50,477 nucleotides of DNA from positions 1-50,477 of the forward strand of contig NAVB01000012.1 of the NCBI GenBank assembly GCA_002179805.1, in the 5' to 3' direction. The DNA is from Acanthamoeba lenticulata. Lineage: Eukaryota; Discosea; Longamoebia; Acanthamoebidae. The notes below the pieces were generated by a model. The model saw nothing but the letters and a program-made list of their open reading frames with translations. It ran no database searches and had not been told where the DNA came from. The position numbers were made by a program, and so were the translations under genes. Below, in pieces: positions 25,110 through 31,798 of this stretch. How positions within the stretch are numbered: position 1 is the stretch's first letter; every line of letters starts with the position of its first letter.

Positions 25110-28100
25110 TCAGGACAAGTTCTTCTTCTTCAGTTTCTTTTGCTTGCCCTCCTCGCCGCCGTGCTTGCTGCTCCGCGTGCTGCCGTGGAGCAGGCTGAAG
25201 TTGAGCTGCGACACAAAGTGGCCCCGTCGCTTGCGCTCGAGGTAGTCCCGCGCGCACTGCTCCACATTGTCACGCGGCGCCATGATGAACGTGCACCGCG
25301 ACCCGTGTCCTGTTTTGGGAATGTGTGGTATGTTCCGTGAGATCACCACCCATCATGGCCGAGATTGGGGTTTTGGGGGGGCGTGCGAACCCAAGGCCTG
25401 GCAGGAGACCTCCACGACCGCGAGCCGCAGCTTGGGCTCGGCCTTGTCGCTGGCGGCCTCGAATGAGGCGGCGGGCTTGTGGAGGCGGGGCGACATGGCC
25501 CCGGTGGGCGCCGCCGAGTCGGGTGGCGCGAGAACGGCCCGGAGGCACTCGTTGGCAAAGCCCTTGATGTAGCCCGCGGCCATCACGCACACGGGCGGCC
25601 GGCCGTAGTCGGGCCGCGGTGACCGGGCGCGTGCCTCGCCGTCGTGGTCCGACGTGCTGCTGCTGCTCTCGCCGCCATCGTCCGACTCGGCGGCCGCGGC
25701 CGCGGCCTCGCGCTCCTTCTTGAGCCACACGGCGGCCTCGATGCTGTGGTGCAGCGAGAACTTGAGGAAGAGGCGCCGGCCGCCGTCGACGGTTGGGTCG
25801 AGCATGGCCTCGCGCGAGTAGAGCTTCATCACGCCCCAGCCCATGTGCGCCAGCAGGGCGGGCAGCGTCAGCAGCTCCCGCACAAAGCGCGCATGGGCGC
25901 GGTGATGATCCTTGAGGATCCCGCTGCCCCCGACGCCGCCGCCGCCGCCGTCGGCCTCGGCGGCGAGCCGGCGGCCGTAGAAGCGCTGGTCGGTCTTGCC
26001 GAGGCTCCGGGCAAAGTCGAACAAGAATTTGGCGGCGAAGAGCCGCGCGTCGGCCCGCTGCTCGGGGGTGGCCGACGGGAAGAGCTCCTGGAGGAGGTGC
26101 AGGAACTCGTGCGAGATGGACTCGCCCCGCAGGAGCACGTGCCGGTGGCCGTCCACGCTCACGTTGGCGTGGCGCGGGTCGAGCACCTGCCGGTCGAACA
26201 GGGCCTTGACCCGCGCGCGGCTCCGCTTGGTCTCGGCCACGATCATGCGCTCGGTCTCGGCGCAGTGCGCGACCTCGGGTGTGCCGCCAACGGCGGCCGC
26301 GGCCGGCGGCTGCGGCGATGACGGCGTCAGCGGCAGGACGGGCGGCGGCGGCGCCGCGGAGGAGACGCGGTGCTTCCACCGGCTGAGGAGGGCGCGCACG
26401 CCGTGCAGCGACTCGCTGCCTTTGTCGGCGTCCTCTGCGGCGGCCGCCACCTTAACGCCGTTGGCGTTGGCCTCGGCTTCGCGCAGGCGCTGGAAGACCT
26501 GGCGCGAGGCCAGGAACCGGTGGACCAGCACTGCCCTGCGCTGTTCCTCTGCTCGTCCCCCATCCAGCCACGTGACGTCAGCAGCGATCTTAAAGAGCTC
26601 AAGCCCCGCCAGGAGAGACGCACCGGTGAAGTTGTGGGCGTCGAAGAAGGCGTCGAGGTGGGCCTGGATCCGGTCCGGGTGGGACATGATGAAGCGGCAC
26701 GCGCTGTCACCGCGGGCGACGCACATGACCTCAGCGGCGACCAGGTCCACGTGGCCCATCGACTCGCCCGTCCAGCCGCTGCTGTAACCCGCGCTCATCA
26801 CGCACACCGGGTGGTGCGGCCTCTTCCGGTGGCCGGCCTGTCGGATCGTGCCGCGTCAGCACACGCTGGCGCCACGCCAGCATGACGTCAGCACCTGCGG
26901 GAAGGGCTACGCACCTGGATCTCGGCGAGCCACGAGTGGGCTTCGAAGGACAACGGGTGGTCGCATCGCAGGAAGCACTCGGCGTCCGGCGACGGCCTGC
27001 ACGAATCGTGCAGATCGACCCGCGCCCAGCCGGCGTAGGCAAAGTGGACCGGGCCGGCCGAGAGGGCCTCGGGCCCGATGGCCAGCTGCATCTTGCGCAT
27101 GAAGTTGCGCGCGTCCGACATGCCCACGGCGTGCGCAAAGTCGAACAGCAGCCGCTGGGCCACCACCTCGCGGTGCGACGCGCTCGGCAGGACGCCGCCC
27201 GCGGCCAGCGTCTCGGCGATGGCCGCGTAGAAGTCGACGGAAAGGGACGGGGCCCGGAGCAAGAGGTACCGCTCGTCAAACACGCTGATCGTGCCCGTGG
27301 TCGACGACTGTGTAGGCAAACAAGAGTGAGTGAGAAAATGACCCGAAATGATCCGAATGGCGGGAGCGGGTTACCTGGTAACACTCGGAAAAGTAGCGGT
27401 GGACTGTCCGCTCGGCCTTGTAGAAGAGGTCCTCAAAGGGTGGCGGCACGACGACCGACTGGCACCTGCGCTTTGGCTCTGGCCGCCCGGACGCAGCCTC
27501 GCCGACGGCCCCCGTGGTGGCGTCGTCTCTGCCGGCCGGTGGCCGCAGGTCGCGCTTGTGGCGCACCACCGCCGGGCCGGCGCTCGTGGCGGAGGCGAGG
27601 CCGATAGGCGACGAGGCCGAACGGCGAATGGACGACTTGACTCGCTGGGCATCGCTTTCCTTCTTGCTCTTCTTGCTCTTCTTCTTGTTGCCGCCGTTGT
27701 CGGCGTCGCTCTTGCGGTGGCCATCATCCCTGGCGGACGCTGGGAGTTCGTCAGCCGAGGCCGGGCGGTGCATGGCGAGCGGGCTGTCGGTCGACCGAGT
27801 GTGCAATGCGGCCAAGTCCTTCACCGCGACCCTGAGCCGGCCTTCGCCCACGACGATCCCGTTTTCGTTTCTCGGCTTCGCTTCGCTCTTTCTGGGCTCG
27901 CTGACGTCACCTTCGCTCTTTTTCTGATCCAGACCGGCGTTCGATGGCCGGTGGTCGACGCTCTCGCTGCCGATCTCGCTGATATCCTCCTCGTCGTGGT
28001 CACCTTCGGCGGTCAACTCGTCATCGCCTCCGGCGTCGGACGCGTCGGTGTGGTGCTTCGAGACCGCCGTTGAGCTCGATTCAGATGCCGACGAGTTGCC

Positions 28101-29467
28101 GTCCGTGTCCGCATCCCGACCGCTCGGCCGTGCCAGGGACGAGTCGTCGGTGTCTGATGCATGCTCGCCCCTACATTCCCGTCATTCCAATTAGTGTTAT
28201 TAACTCACATTTTCAAAAGAAAGAACGGTGGCGCACTTGGTGGGGTCGATCCAGAGGCTGGGCTGGGCCTTGAGGGACAGCGCGTAGAGCTCCTCCTCGT
28301 CGTAGACCACGTGACTGCTCAGCGTGGCCAGGTAGCCCTGCACGGCGGGCGACCGCCCGGCCGCGGCCAGCGTGGCGCCCATGGGCGCGGCCTGGAAGGC
28401 GCGCACCTCGCGGGCGCGCTCGAACAGGAGGTGCACATACTTGTCGTTCACCGCGCCGTTGGGGCCGTACTGGCGGTTGCCGTCGTTGATGAAGGTGAAG
28501 TCGCGCAGGTAGATGCCAAAGTAGGGCAGGACGGGCGGCCGGCGCCGCCGCAGCTCGCGGCGGTAGTGCCGGAAGTTGTGCTGCGGGCTCACCAGCGCGT
28601 CGAGCTCGGTCCACTGGGCGCAGGCGCGCTCGCCCAGGCGCTCCCATACGACCTTGAGCCGCTGGACGGAGCTGTGGTTGAGGCCCGACACGATCTCCAT
28701 GACCGCGTTGAGGTTGTTGATCTGCGCGCACTGCGCCGCCAGCCGGATGAACTTTTCCACCACCTGCACCTGCGCCGCCGCGCCCTTGGTCACCAGCACT
28801 TCGGTCGCCACCCAGTGCGAGATCTGCGCCGCACACACGCACCGCACACGCGCACCGCACACGCGCTGTCAGTTGACGAGGAGAGGGGAGGTCGATGAGG
28901 GGGATGAGAGGGACCAGCTTGTATTGGTTGATGATGGGCTCGAAGAGGGAGTCGCCCTGCGGGTTCTTGATGGTGAGGAGGCTGCGCGGGTTGACCTCCT
29001 GGAACAGCTGCCACTCCATCAGCGTCAGCTCCCTGCGCGCGCCCACACCCCACACACATCATGTGAGCCCAAAAGAACGAAAGCGAAAGCAAAAACGACA
29101 GCAGAGTGGTTTCGAACCGGGCCAAGACTGGTTCGGGGATCTCGAGGAGGTCGACCACCCGCTTGGCCGGCCGCAACGTTGTGGATGGGGCCGCCAGGGG
29201 AGATGGGCTGCTCACCCTCGGACCCAGGTCCGCCAACGGCGTCCCGTCCTTTTCCTCCTCTCCCTCCTCTTCATCCACCGCGTCGGTCTTGGCCTGGGCG
29301 GGAACCGGGGCGACGTTTGTGGCGGTGCGGTTGCGGAGGAGAAGGAGCTTGATCTCGTTGGCCAGCGCGGCGTCGTATTTCATGGCCAGCTGCAGGATTG
29401 TGCTCATCTGCTTGGACGACAGGTCGCCTGTTTATTACATGTTGGTTCACACATGTCAGCTTTCCCA

Positions 29468-29498
<31 letters not shown>

Positions 29499-30092
29499 CA
29501 AGGACGTTGGTTAGGTGTAAGCGTGCCCGAGTGGGTGCGGCACCAGGCCGCGGCAAAGGCGTTGAGGCGGTCGAGCCGGGCGGCCCGGGCCTCCTCGGTC
29601 ATGGCCTGGCGTTGCACCACCTCCGTGTACCTAGCACGGTGACGAGGCAGCAAGAGGGGCTGACGTCAGCACCACCAATCGTGACAAAAGGTTTTGCATT
29701 GCGGGTGTTGCTTCACAGCCGCAATCGGAGATCGGGGAAAGGAACACAAACAAAAATTCAAATAATGGAAGGATAAACTTGGTGGTAGAGACGAAGTGGT
29801 CTGAGGAGGAGAAGGAGACGACGCACCGCTTCTCCCACAGGCTGAAGAGTTCGCGGGCCGGGGTGGAGCTGGTGGCGTAGAGCGGGTAGACAAGCAGCCA
29901 GGCCTCGGCCTCGTCCTGCCCGCCCGCCGCCAGAACGCGCTTGGTAAAGCGCTCAAAGGCAGTTGCCGTGTCCATCATCTCCTCCTCTTCCTGCTTATGC
30001 GGCGTTGCTGGAGGCGCTGCAGCTGGCGGCGCAGTGTTTCGTTCTTCTTTTCCGTCGTCCTGGCCACTGCGCTTGGCTTCTTTGGCCTCCAT
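25110..30092 (-). CDS. Ras guanine-nucleotide exchange factor fused to two V4R-type sensor modules
   Basis: Nine exons: 30092-29827, 29630-29506, 29427-29118, 29032-28915, 28823-28237, 28170-27375, 27307-26915, 26837-25391 and 25309-25110; 1,413 aa, every junction GT-AG and phase-consistent. REM domain about residues 42-155 (EAWLLVYPLY, ARELFSLWEKR). CDC25 catalytic domain about 235-465 (ARELTLMEWQLF, ISHWVATEVL, NNLNAVMEIVSGLNHSSVQRL, PPVLPYFGIYLRD). Then a Ser/Asp/Lys-rich linker, then two V4R modules (about 735-960 and 1060-1400), each with FDFA-x-x-x-G in the helical half and the Cys / E-x2-C / Cys set of the V4R zinc site. Family knowledge: REM-CDC25 loads Ras with GTP; V4R modules of bacterial XylR/DmpR-type activators bind small ligands. 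A ligand-gated Ras activator is inference. No in-frame ATG precedes the V4R part, which argues against a separate gene. Up to 75 nt of exon 8 (26623-26549) could be a further intron. Confidence 0.78.
26549..26623 (-). other. possible stopless 75-nt intron inside RasGEF-V4R exon 8
   Basis: It begins GTGCGT, ends GAGCAG, contains GCTGACGTCA, has a length divisible by three and no stop. Splicing joins HNFT to EEQRRAV in frame and shortens the protein by 25 residues just after V4R module 1. Retained or spliced cannot be decided from sequence. Confidence 0.4.
29469..29503 (+). repeat. (ACG)n microsatellite in RasGEF intron 2
   Basis: Run of ACG triplets with one imperfect unit, lying just inside the donor of the 78-nt intron 29505-29428. 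On the transcribed strand it reads GTC repeats. Confidence 0.8.
29659..29670. promoter_or_regulatory. GCTGACGTCAGC palindrome in RasGEF intron 1
   Basis: Perfect 12-nt palindrome containing TGACGTCA, in the 196-nt intron 29826-29631. The CTGAC part would place a branch A 36 nt from the acceptor. The same GCTGACGTCA core occurs in introns of other genes here. Confidence 0.5.
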
Positions 30093-30426: not shown

Positions 30427-31798
30427 ATGAACGCTATCGGGAGGTCCTCTTCCTATGCAGTCCGGCAGTGGCGCTACAGCCCTGAGCACGGCCAGTGGGC
30501 CATGCTGACTGCTCAGCAAGTGGTGCGCAACACACACCTGTTCTGCTCCAACCTCATCGCACTTTGGCATTGCACCCCCAAGAAACCATTTCTTATTCCC
30601 TTCCCCCCCCCCCCTCTTGCAGGAGCGCGACGCGCCCAAGAACATCGAGACCAAGTCGCTCCGGATGATGACCTACAACGTTTGGTTCGGAGACGCCGCC
30701 CGGCGCATCAGGTGCGCGCCTCACCCGAGACTTCTCTTTGGATGGTGGCTCACTGTCCAGTGTCGTGCCCGGTCCAGGATCCAGGCCATCCTCGCCATGG
30801 TGGCGAAGCTCGAGCCCGACATCGTGTGCATCCAGGAGGGTGCGTCGTCTCTCCTTCTCCTCTTCGGGACCCACACAGCTGACTCGGCCCGGGGACACAG
30901 CCACCGAGGAGTGGATCGCCGAGATGACCAGCAACGACTACATCCAGCGGCACTACACCCTCTCCGACGCAGACGGCCGCACGCTGCGCGGGTACGGCGT
31001 GGTGGTGATGTCGAGGTGGGTCATGCCGCGCCTCGACATGTGGTGGCTGCCCACCGGGATGGGCCGCTCGGCCTTGATTGCCACCTACACCATCAACGAC
31101 GAAACCGTACGTCGCAGCCTCAGCTCGCCCCTCTCGGCCGCATGTGGTGCTCACTCGTCTGTGGTTCTTTCCCTCGTCAACAGGTGTGCGTTGGGACGGT
31201 CCACTTGGAGAGCCTCGACAACACGCCCGTCCGCGCGCAGCAGCTCGAGATCATAGCCCAGGCGCTGGCCCCGGCCGCCCACGCGGGCCTCTTGGGCGAC
31301 TTCAACTTTGACTCGGACACCAACTACTGGGACAGGTGCGTGTCGTGGTGTGTGACACATCCCCGCGTTCGTGCACAGAGCACCAACAATATGTTGTGCA
31401 GGAGGGCTGATTCGCCGCTGGAGAACGACAACCTGGCGCGCGTCATGCCGGGCTATGTCGACATGTGGCCCGCGGTCCACCCGGGCAAGCGGGGCCTCAC
31501 GTTCGACAGCGAAAGCAACCGCTTGATTGGCGGCAACGAGCAGGCTCGGTACGTCGCGGTGGTGCACCCCCCTGGGGCCAGGACCTAAGGCCAACAACTC
31601 ATCGTATGCGCGTTTGGTACCGCGCGTAGATACGATCGAGTGATGTGGCGGTCGACGGGCGGGCGGTGGCGGCCCAAGGCCATGGAGATCCTCGGCACGC
31701 AGCCTCTCCCGGGCCTCGCCTCGATCTGGCCCTCGGACCACTTTGGCCTCTTCACCACGCTCGAGTACCACGAGGACGAAGCTCCCAAGCGATCGTAG
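30427..31798 (+). CDS. TDP2-like endonuclease/exonuclease/phosphatase-family phosphodiesterase
   Basis: Seven exons: 30427-30522, 30623-30711, 30778-30839, 30901-31106, 31184-31335, 31402-31548 and 31630-31798; 306 aa, all GT-AG and in phase. The EEP signature motifs are complete and in order: TYNVWFGD (N51), DIVCIQE (E82), TVHLES (H158), GDFNFD (D190, N192) and SDHFGL (D287, H288). These are the Mg-dependent catalytic residues of the fold that includes TDP2, APE1 and DNase I. Length and motif wording fit a compact TDP2-type 5'-tyrosyl DNA phosphodiesterase without the UBA domain of the animal enzyme; another EEP hydrolase is possible. The end of exon 1 is ambiguous by one codon (GTGGTGCGC offers two GT sites in the same phase). 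The N-terminal 32 residues are unlike the catalytic domain. Confidence 0.78.

Follow-up and report, generated by a model that had tools for sequence, protein, structure and literature searches.

A RasGEF joined to two V4R modules

The DNA considered here (the window, meaning the whole stretch analysed) comprises 50,477 nucleotides, positions 1 to 50,477 of contig NAVB01000012.1 in the Acanthamoeba lenticulata assembly GCA_002179805.1. Its minus strand carries a gene, running from 30092 to 25110, in which a Ras guanine nucleotide exchange factor (RasGEF) is followed by a linker and two V4R modules, termed V4R1 and V4R2 (Table 1). In the spliced model, ten exons and nine introns form a single open reading frame (ORF) of 1381 amino acids (aa). 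An earlier note on this DNA had read the same order of RasGEF, linker, and two V4R-like modules in one frame, with eight introns rather than nine, and the order and frame are borne out by Pfam, by a profile of 80 prokaryotic V4R modules, and by a spliced aligner guided by the homologue P0001. On comparative sequence evidence, the gene is confirmed as a genuine fusion, predicted to place a RasGEF and two V4R modules in one polypeptide; a homologue derived from a transcript, other loci that show this order, and the way in which two copies of the gene have diverged all support the fusion.

Of the three profiles named by the earlier note (V4R, RasGEF, and RasGEF_N), RasGEF and V4R exceed their curated cut-offs in hidden Markov model searches with Pfam, which were run on the 1394-aa hand model of the gene. 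RasGEF (PF00617) matches at 4.7e-45, with 154.1 bits against a cut-off of 23.1, over model positions 5-176 of 181, and V4R (PF02830) matches the whole protein at 2.6e-11, with 43.8 bits against a cut-off of 31, in three stretches; the V4R match of a single exon taken alone reaches 27.2 bits, below the cut-off. XylR_N (PF06505) gives a weak match (0.009; 16.2 bits, below the cut-off of 23), as it does in the paralogue on contig C345 (0.0042). These three are the only families matched in the window protein up to E 1, and no AAA+ sigma-54 activation, DNA-binding, cyclic-nucleotide-binding, or TRAPP domain is among them.

When the catalytic CDC25 domain is compared with solved CDC25 chains, Epac2 scores best (1.2e-29), narrowly ahead of 2ije (1.9e-28), and RasGRP and SOS chains follow. 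The CDC25 motif named in the earlier note is recovered by its own profile (4.7e-45), whereas the REM motif named beside it is not: Pfam RasGEF_N (PF00618) has no match in the window gene, either up to E 1 or up to E 10. A comparison by hhalign of the region with 12 of the genome's 89 RasGEF_N stretches gives a probability of 76.8% and an E-value of 2.1e-5, and a profile of the region retrieves no GEF among PDB chains. The N-terminal region, weakly supported, may be called REM-like. The paralogue on contig C1326 has a weak RasGEF_N match (0.04) with stops within. The genome holds a large RasGEF repertoire, with 166 exon-level matches, and on contig C816 two CDC25 stretches lie within one 1377-aa open frame.

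V4R1 is covered end to end by the 80-module profile (score 254.5, independent E-value (i-E) 8e-77), while V4R2 is matched in three pieces split by inserts (46.2, 12.4, and 16.9; best i-E 4.6e-13), and the same profile yields no matches in 2000 shuffled proteins. Two phenol sensors, MopR (4.6e-7) and PoxR (0.023), are matched by V4R1 among solved structures. A further weak XylR_N match (0.072) lies at positions 781-903 of contig C13, apart from the RasGEF-V4R loci.

Evidence for a single polypeptide

The strongest support for the predicted fusion is provided by P0001, a transcriptome-derived ORF of 1300 aa from another eukaryote, labelled complete in EukProt, which presents the same block order in a single transcript and matches both RasGEF (1e-49) and V4R (2.4e-10) in Pfam. 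P0001 is colinear with the window protein, at 38% identity over 437 columns of the REM-like region and CDC25 domain and at 45% identity over 674 columns of V4R1 and V4R2. The evidence from the window's own species is genomic sequence, and the transcript evidence comes from this homologue.

Within the genome, the order CDC25, V4R1, V4R2 is found in spliced models of four gene types, namely the window type and those on contigs C345, C213/C1253, and C1326, the models of these last three being uncertain in the linker and at their ends. RasGEF and V4R are both above the Pfam cut-offs in the C345 and C1326 models, which are those that the Pfam check covered, C213 not being among them. All six contigs with V4R matches (C12, which is the window contig, C1302, C345, C213, C1253, and C1326) also have a RasGEF match. 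Two of the four gene types occur as near-identical pairs on separate contigs, the second copies lying on C1302 (L006) and C1253 (L024), as from two haplotypes or recent duplicates.

The window gene and its copy on C1302, which has ten exons with the same borders in a spliced alignment guided by the window protein, differ by 41 synonymous changes and 17 non-synonymous ones in 1378 codons (dS 0.041, dN 0.0055, ratio 0.133). By part, the synonymous and non-synonymous changes number 8 and 2 in CDC25, 8 and 2 in the linker, 10 and 5 in V4R1, and 6 and 3 in V4R2, all of them small, raw counts. Exon lengths differ between the copies in three of ten cases, each time by a multiple of three, and intron lengths in five of nine, twice by other amounts; as evidence for the reading frame this contrast is weak, because the remaining three of the five differing introns also differ by multiples of three.

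The data could alternatively reflect two adjacent genes wrongly merged into one, the first encoding a RasGEF and the second, downstream of it, the V4R modules, and on paper a separate V4R start is available, since codon 595 in the linker exon (27773-27771) is an in-frame ATG. The earlier note had argued against a separate V4R gene by stating that this exon has no such ATG, and that argument fails on account of this codon; P0001, as one complete transcript-derived ORF spanning all blocks, replaces it. The deposited Balamuthia model P0023, which is without RasGEF, is compatible with two genes, whereas the same order at the further loci and the excess of synonymous over non-synonymous changes in the linker argue against them, and a merged pair is considered highly improbable.

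Exon structure and surroundings

The model reached its length of 1381 aa after two donor sites of the starting hand model (1394 aa) were revised with the help of the homologue, which moved the end of exon 2 to 29527, where a GC donor follows, and that of exon 3 to 29118; the same letters are found in the C1302 copy. The inner exon borders, including both revised donors, are reproduced by the custom spliced aligner with P0001 as sole guide, an alignment that is local, beginning at 30035 and ending at 25200, and that places one spurious intron in the non-conserved linker. Intron 2 (29526-29428) is a GC-AG intron with a GTC-repeat stretch, and its GC donor is likewise present in C1302. On the plus strand, an adjoining open frame occupies 30509-31588, and its translation (NVWFGD ... 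IQEG) includes a stretch with a putative resemblance to endonuclease/exonuclease/phosphatase enzymes.

Table 1. Features of the RasGEF-V4R gene in the window, with the evidence for each
Feature	Position	Strand	Evidence and remarks
Whole RasGEF-V4R gene	25110..30092	-	Ten exons encoding 1381 aa, in the order REM-like region, CDC25, linker, V4R1, V4R2; colinear with P0001
Exon 1, start ATG 30092	29827..30092	-	Hand model; same exon in second copy C1302
Exon 2, then GC donor	29527..29630	-	Homologue-aided correction, P0001-guided aligner; GC donor also in C1302
Exon 3	29118..29427	-	Homologue-aided correction, P0001-guided aligner
Exon 4	28915..29032	-	Hand model, P0001-guided aligner
Exon 5, bulk of CDC25	28237..28823	-	Hand model, P0001-guided aligner; RasGEF match
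Exon 6, linker and start of V4R1	27375..28170	-	Hand model, spliced models guided by window protein
Exon 7, V4R1 (XylR_N part)	26915..27307	-	Hand model, P0001-guided aligner, V4R-match scan
Exon 8, V4R1 (V4R part)	26624..26837	-	V4R match, hand model, P0001-guided aligner
Exon 9, inter-module stretch and bulk of V4R2	25391..26548	-	Hand model, P0001-guided aligner
Exon 10, final V4R2 cysteine, basic tail, stop	25110..25309	-	Hand model; to 25200 also P0001-guided aligner
REM-like region, aa 62-133 (introns 1 and 2 inside)	29399..29909	-	hhalign against 12 REM stretches, 76.8%, E 2.1e-5
CDC25/RasGEF catalytic domain, aa 228-392 of refined model (intron 4 inside)	28446..29031	-	Pfam extent
Charged/Ser-rich linker, aa 462-698 (intron 5 inside)	27462..28238	-	8 synonymous against 2 non-synonymous differences between C12 and C1302
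V4R1, complete XylR_N+V4R-type module, aa 699-944	26505..27461	-	Profile i-E 8e-77; MopR 7vqf/5kbe; predicted Zn ligands C870, E894, C897, C905
V4R2, diverged with inserts, aa 1026-1356	25188..26261	-	Three pieces, best i-E 4.6e-13; predicted Zn ligands C1250, E1309, C1312, C1321

Relatives and origin of the modules

A protein search with the C-terminal half of the window protein found 22 proteins, P0001 and 21 prokaryotic signalling proteins with V4R and GGDEF/EAL or histidine-kinase domains, most of which also have PAS and none of which has RasGEF; V4R1 is 42.5-53.6% identical to these 21 over the module. With C345 as the query, P0001 and the Balamuthia mandrillaris protein P0023 (QOT17_001958) are found, the latter having tandem V4R modules with long inserts inside V4R2. 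Both searches scored the top 8000 word-sharing candidates, and further fusions could have escaped them. Among 604 candidates, the V4R2 region of P0001 retrieves P0001 itself as the sole match. One scan of viral contigs for carriage of the V4R module returned 22 pattern matches and no relative.

A scan of prokaryotic genomes gave 220 stretches encoding such modules; the 80 best were retained, and they come from Myxococcota, Planctomycetota, Acidobacteriota, Bacteroidota, Pseudomonadota, and others, including two archaeal bins. The 80 loci gave 72 complete ORFs shorter than 1400 aa, and the 71 of these that were scanned with Pfam contain V4R (71), XylR_N (56, at E <= 0.001), HATPase_c (53), GGDEF (8), EAL (5), and, in one case, a sigma-54 activation domain.

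The V4R tree has 58 rows: 12 modules of amoebae, with the near-copies C1302 and C1253 omitted, 40 drawn from the 80 prokaryotic loci, and 6 drawn from the 21 signalling proteins. In it all six V4R1 modules form one group (98/97) and all six V4R2 modules another (99/100). Within V4R1, C12, C345, and P0001 are joined (100/100), as are C213, C1326, and P0023 (96/80). The inner grouping is read with care, eight amoeba rows and L096 being flagged as long, and the joins flagged as possibly false for this reason include that of P0023 to C1326 among the V4R1 modules and that of C213 to C1326 among the V4R2 modules. Both amoeba groups attach to an unresolved prokaryotic fan, from which no donor phylum emerges. 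As P0023 has one module in each V4R group, the tree suggests that the tandem predates the split between Acanthamoeba and Balamuthia; V4R2 may have arisen by duplication of V4R1 or by a second uptake. A profilin match (3e-73 to 1f2k, a chain from Acanthamoeba castellanii) is the basis for the genus of the window.

A CDC25 tree was built from C12, C345, C213, C1326, P0001, and a further 20 of the genome's RasGEF stretches; a branch (84/89, not starred) sets apart the five members of the V4R family, which adjoin C368 and C237 (100/99). At these two sister RasGEF loci (L126 and L127), tblastn at E <= 0.001 detects no V4R in 9.0 and 9.5 kb. A single fusion with later duplications is the best fit.

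Predicted zinc site and ligand pocket

The pocket and zinc positions of the modules were read against MopR in a MAFFT alignment, with the roles of the MopR residues taken from passages of PMC10715001. The zinc ligands Cys/Glu/Cys/Cys are retained at 44 of 44 places across the 11 amoeba modules tabulated, and both window modules have predicted zinc sets as in MopR (Table 1). V4R2 of P0023 was left out of the residue table with its very long inserts, and its four zinc ligands are visible in a separate alignment. Of the 13 pocket sites of window V4R1, 11 match the consensus drawn from the 80 prokaryotic modules and three match MopR.

The MopR residues that anchor phenol, His106 and Trp134, are replaced by Phe and His in V4R1 and by Leu and Leu in V4R2. 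Across all tabulated modules, 11 from amoebae and 80 from prokaryotes, His never occurs at 106, nor Trp at 134. For this reason phenol was rejected as the likely ligand and is held to be unlikely for the window V4R modules. The analogy with phenol sensors drawn in the earlier note accordingly needs to be corrected at the phenol anchors.

The retention of all four zinc ligands in every tabulated module, including V4R2, whose pocket is not kept, raises the alternative that the two V4R modules sense redox state or metal, in such a way that oxidation or zinc loss at the three-Cys/one-Glu site alters the fold and the exchange activity and no organic ligand is involved. A precedent is described in passages of PMC3729527, where conserved V4R cysteines of archaeal MsvR influence redox-dependent DNA binding. 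In MopR-type sensors, however, zinc is described as upholding structural integrity (passages of PMC10715001), and a V4R1 organic-ligand pocket kept at 11 of 13 sites would be superfluous for a pure redox sensor; such a sensor is regarded as unlikely.

The V4R2 pocket row, in turn, is hydrophobic throughout, as might be expected if the V4R pair served as a Bet3/TRAPP-like platform for dimerisation or membrane targeting, placing the GEF on vesicles or holding an acyl chain constitutively, with no gating. V4R and Bet3 are homologous according to passages of PMC2253512, and in passages of PMC10933270 TRAPPC3/C6 are depicted with palmitic acid and dimers are formed by V4R/TRAPPC3 proteins. Against a platform stand the 42.5-53.6% identity of V4R1 to 21 prokaryotic signalling proteins and the lack of a Pfam TRAPP match up to E 1, and the zinc site, which is replaced by a hydrogen bond in mouse TRAPPC3 (PMC10933270), is retained in the window. 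A platform role is judged to be as improbable as the redox one.

Proposed function

The V4R modules are supported as sensors by their homology to prokaryotic signalling sensors and by the kept zinc and pocket residues, and Ras loading would then be under ligand control. The window protein is accordingly proposed to be a cytosolic, receptor-like, ligand-gated exchange factor for Ras/Rap-family GTPases, a reading to which a probability of about 0.55 is assigned. Ligand control of the GEF would be the best explanation because a prokaryotic-type sensor pocket is attached to a Ras-loading enzyme and has been kept through duplication. In the proposed mechanism, V4R1 would bind a small molecule of the class bound by its prokaryotic relatives, and V4R2 would bind a second, more aliphatic molecule or act as a pseudo-dimer partner of V4R1. 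Ligand binding would alter the packing of the V4R pair on the CDC25 domain, and the altered packing would relieve inhibition, allowing the Ras/Rap GTPase to be loaded, akin to the action of cAMP in Epac.

Several observations weigh against a ligand-gated exchange factor. Window V4R2 agrees with the prokaryotic consensus at just 4 of the 13 pocket sites and may bind nothing, and the case for the REM region is weak. The paralogue models are free of stops partly since the aligner penalises stops, and several contain doubtful GC donors. Between the two V4R modules, the copies on C12 and C1302 differ by three synonymous and three non-synonymous changes (ratio 0.376), counts as small and raw as the others. 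The deposited model of B. mandrillaris P0023 has both V4R modules and no RasGEF, which may reflect loss, a different architecture, or a split gene model.

A wider, more speculative and rather doubtful proposal is that of a two-input family of soluble chemoreceptors, in which an ancestor of Acanthamoeba and its kin would have acquired a prokaryotic sensor together with its ligand specificity, joined it to a RasGEF, and duplicated it. V4R1 would read a molecule that bacteria also sense, V4R2 would read an aliphatic one, and both would set Ras, reading chemicals of prey or the environment inside the cell without a membrane receptor.

If a ligand-gated exchange factor is indeed encoded, a prokaryotic small-molecule sensor would have been rewired onto Ras, a central eukaryotic switch. 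In passages of PMC13359236, the chemotaxis receptors of Acanthamoeba are termed unidentified and signalling that converges on Ras is discussed; RasGEF-V4R is a concrete candidate for chemical sensing in Acanthamoeba without a surface receptor. The pocket is common to many prokaryotic kinases, and identifying a ligand on either side would thus shed light on both; a cell-permeable ligand would turn the V4R module into a chemical switch for Ras.

Comparison with known systems

Epac1 and Epac2 (RapGEF3/4) are RasGEF proteins whose own chain binds the small molecule that controls them, Epac2 being gated by cAMP through a sensor, the cyclic-nucleotide-binding domain, that is N-terminal to the GEF. 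The likeness of the window protein to Epac extends to its CDC25 domain, for which Epac2 is the best-scoring solved structure; the window sensor differs in being a C-terminal V4R, with no cyclic-nucleotide-binding domain among the Pfam matches up to E 1. Among amoebozoans, passages of PMC4758236 describe GbpC and GbpD of Dictyostelium and Physarum, in which a RasGEF is combined with cyclic-nucleotide binding; cyclic-nucleotide sensors, protein kinase, and DEP domains are named there, and V4R is not. Control of a RasGEF by a small molecule acting in cis is therefore already a known kind and as such not new. Of the ligand-gated Ras activator suggested in the earlier note, the single polypeptide and the sensor-type modules are supported, and ligand control of Ras loading is putative.

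The earlier note also raised the pairing of RasGEF with V4R as possibly undescribed, and no such pairing was found in the open-licence papers searched; an unremarked listing may exist in subscription journals or domain databases. In one paper with both V4R and Acanthamoeba, the term concerns a PCR primer. Taken as whole words, "RasGEF" and "V4R" are both absent from the main text of the A. castellanii genome paper (PMC4053784).

With respect to the V4R part, the homologous fold of Bet3/TRAPPC3 (PMC2253512, in part) differs in that the window protein has no Pfam TRAPP match up to E 1 and retains the zinc site. The sensors of the sigma-54 activators MopR, DmpR (CapR), and PoxR share the XylR_N+V4R-type unit and the Cys/Glu/Cys/Cys zinc set, whereas the window gene is without the AAA+ sigma-54 part and without the His106/Trp134 anchor, and its output is a RasGEF. 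The closest relatives of V4R1 found are the prokaryotic V4R-PAS-histidine kinase and V4R-PAS-GGDEF-EAL proteins (our own label for which is the DHPxSFE type), with which V4R1 shares pocket residues at 11 of 13 sites. In those proteins one module lies close to the N-terminal end of a kinase or a cyclic-di-GMP enzyme; in the window protein, two modules lie C-terminally on a RasGEF.

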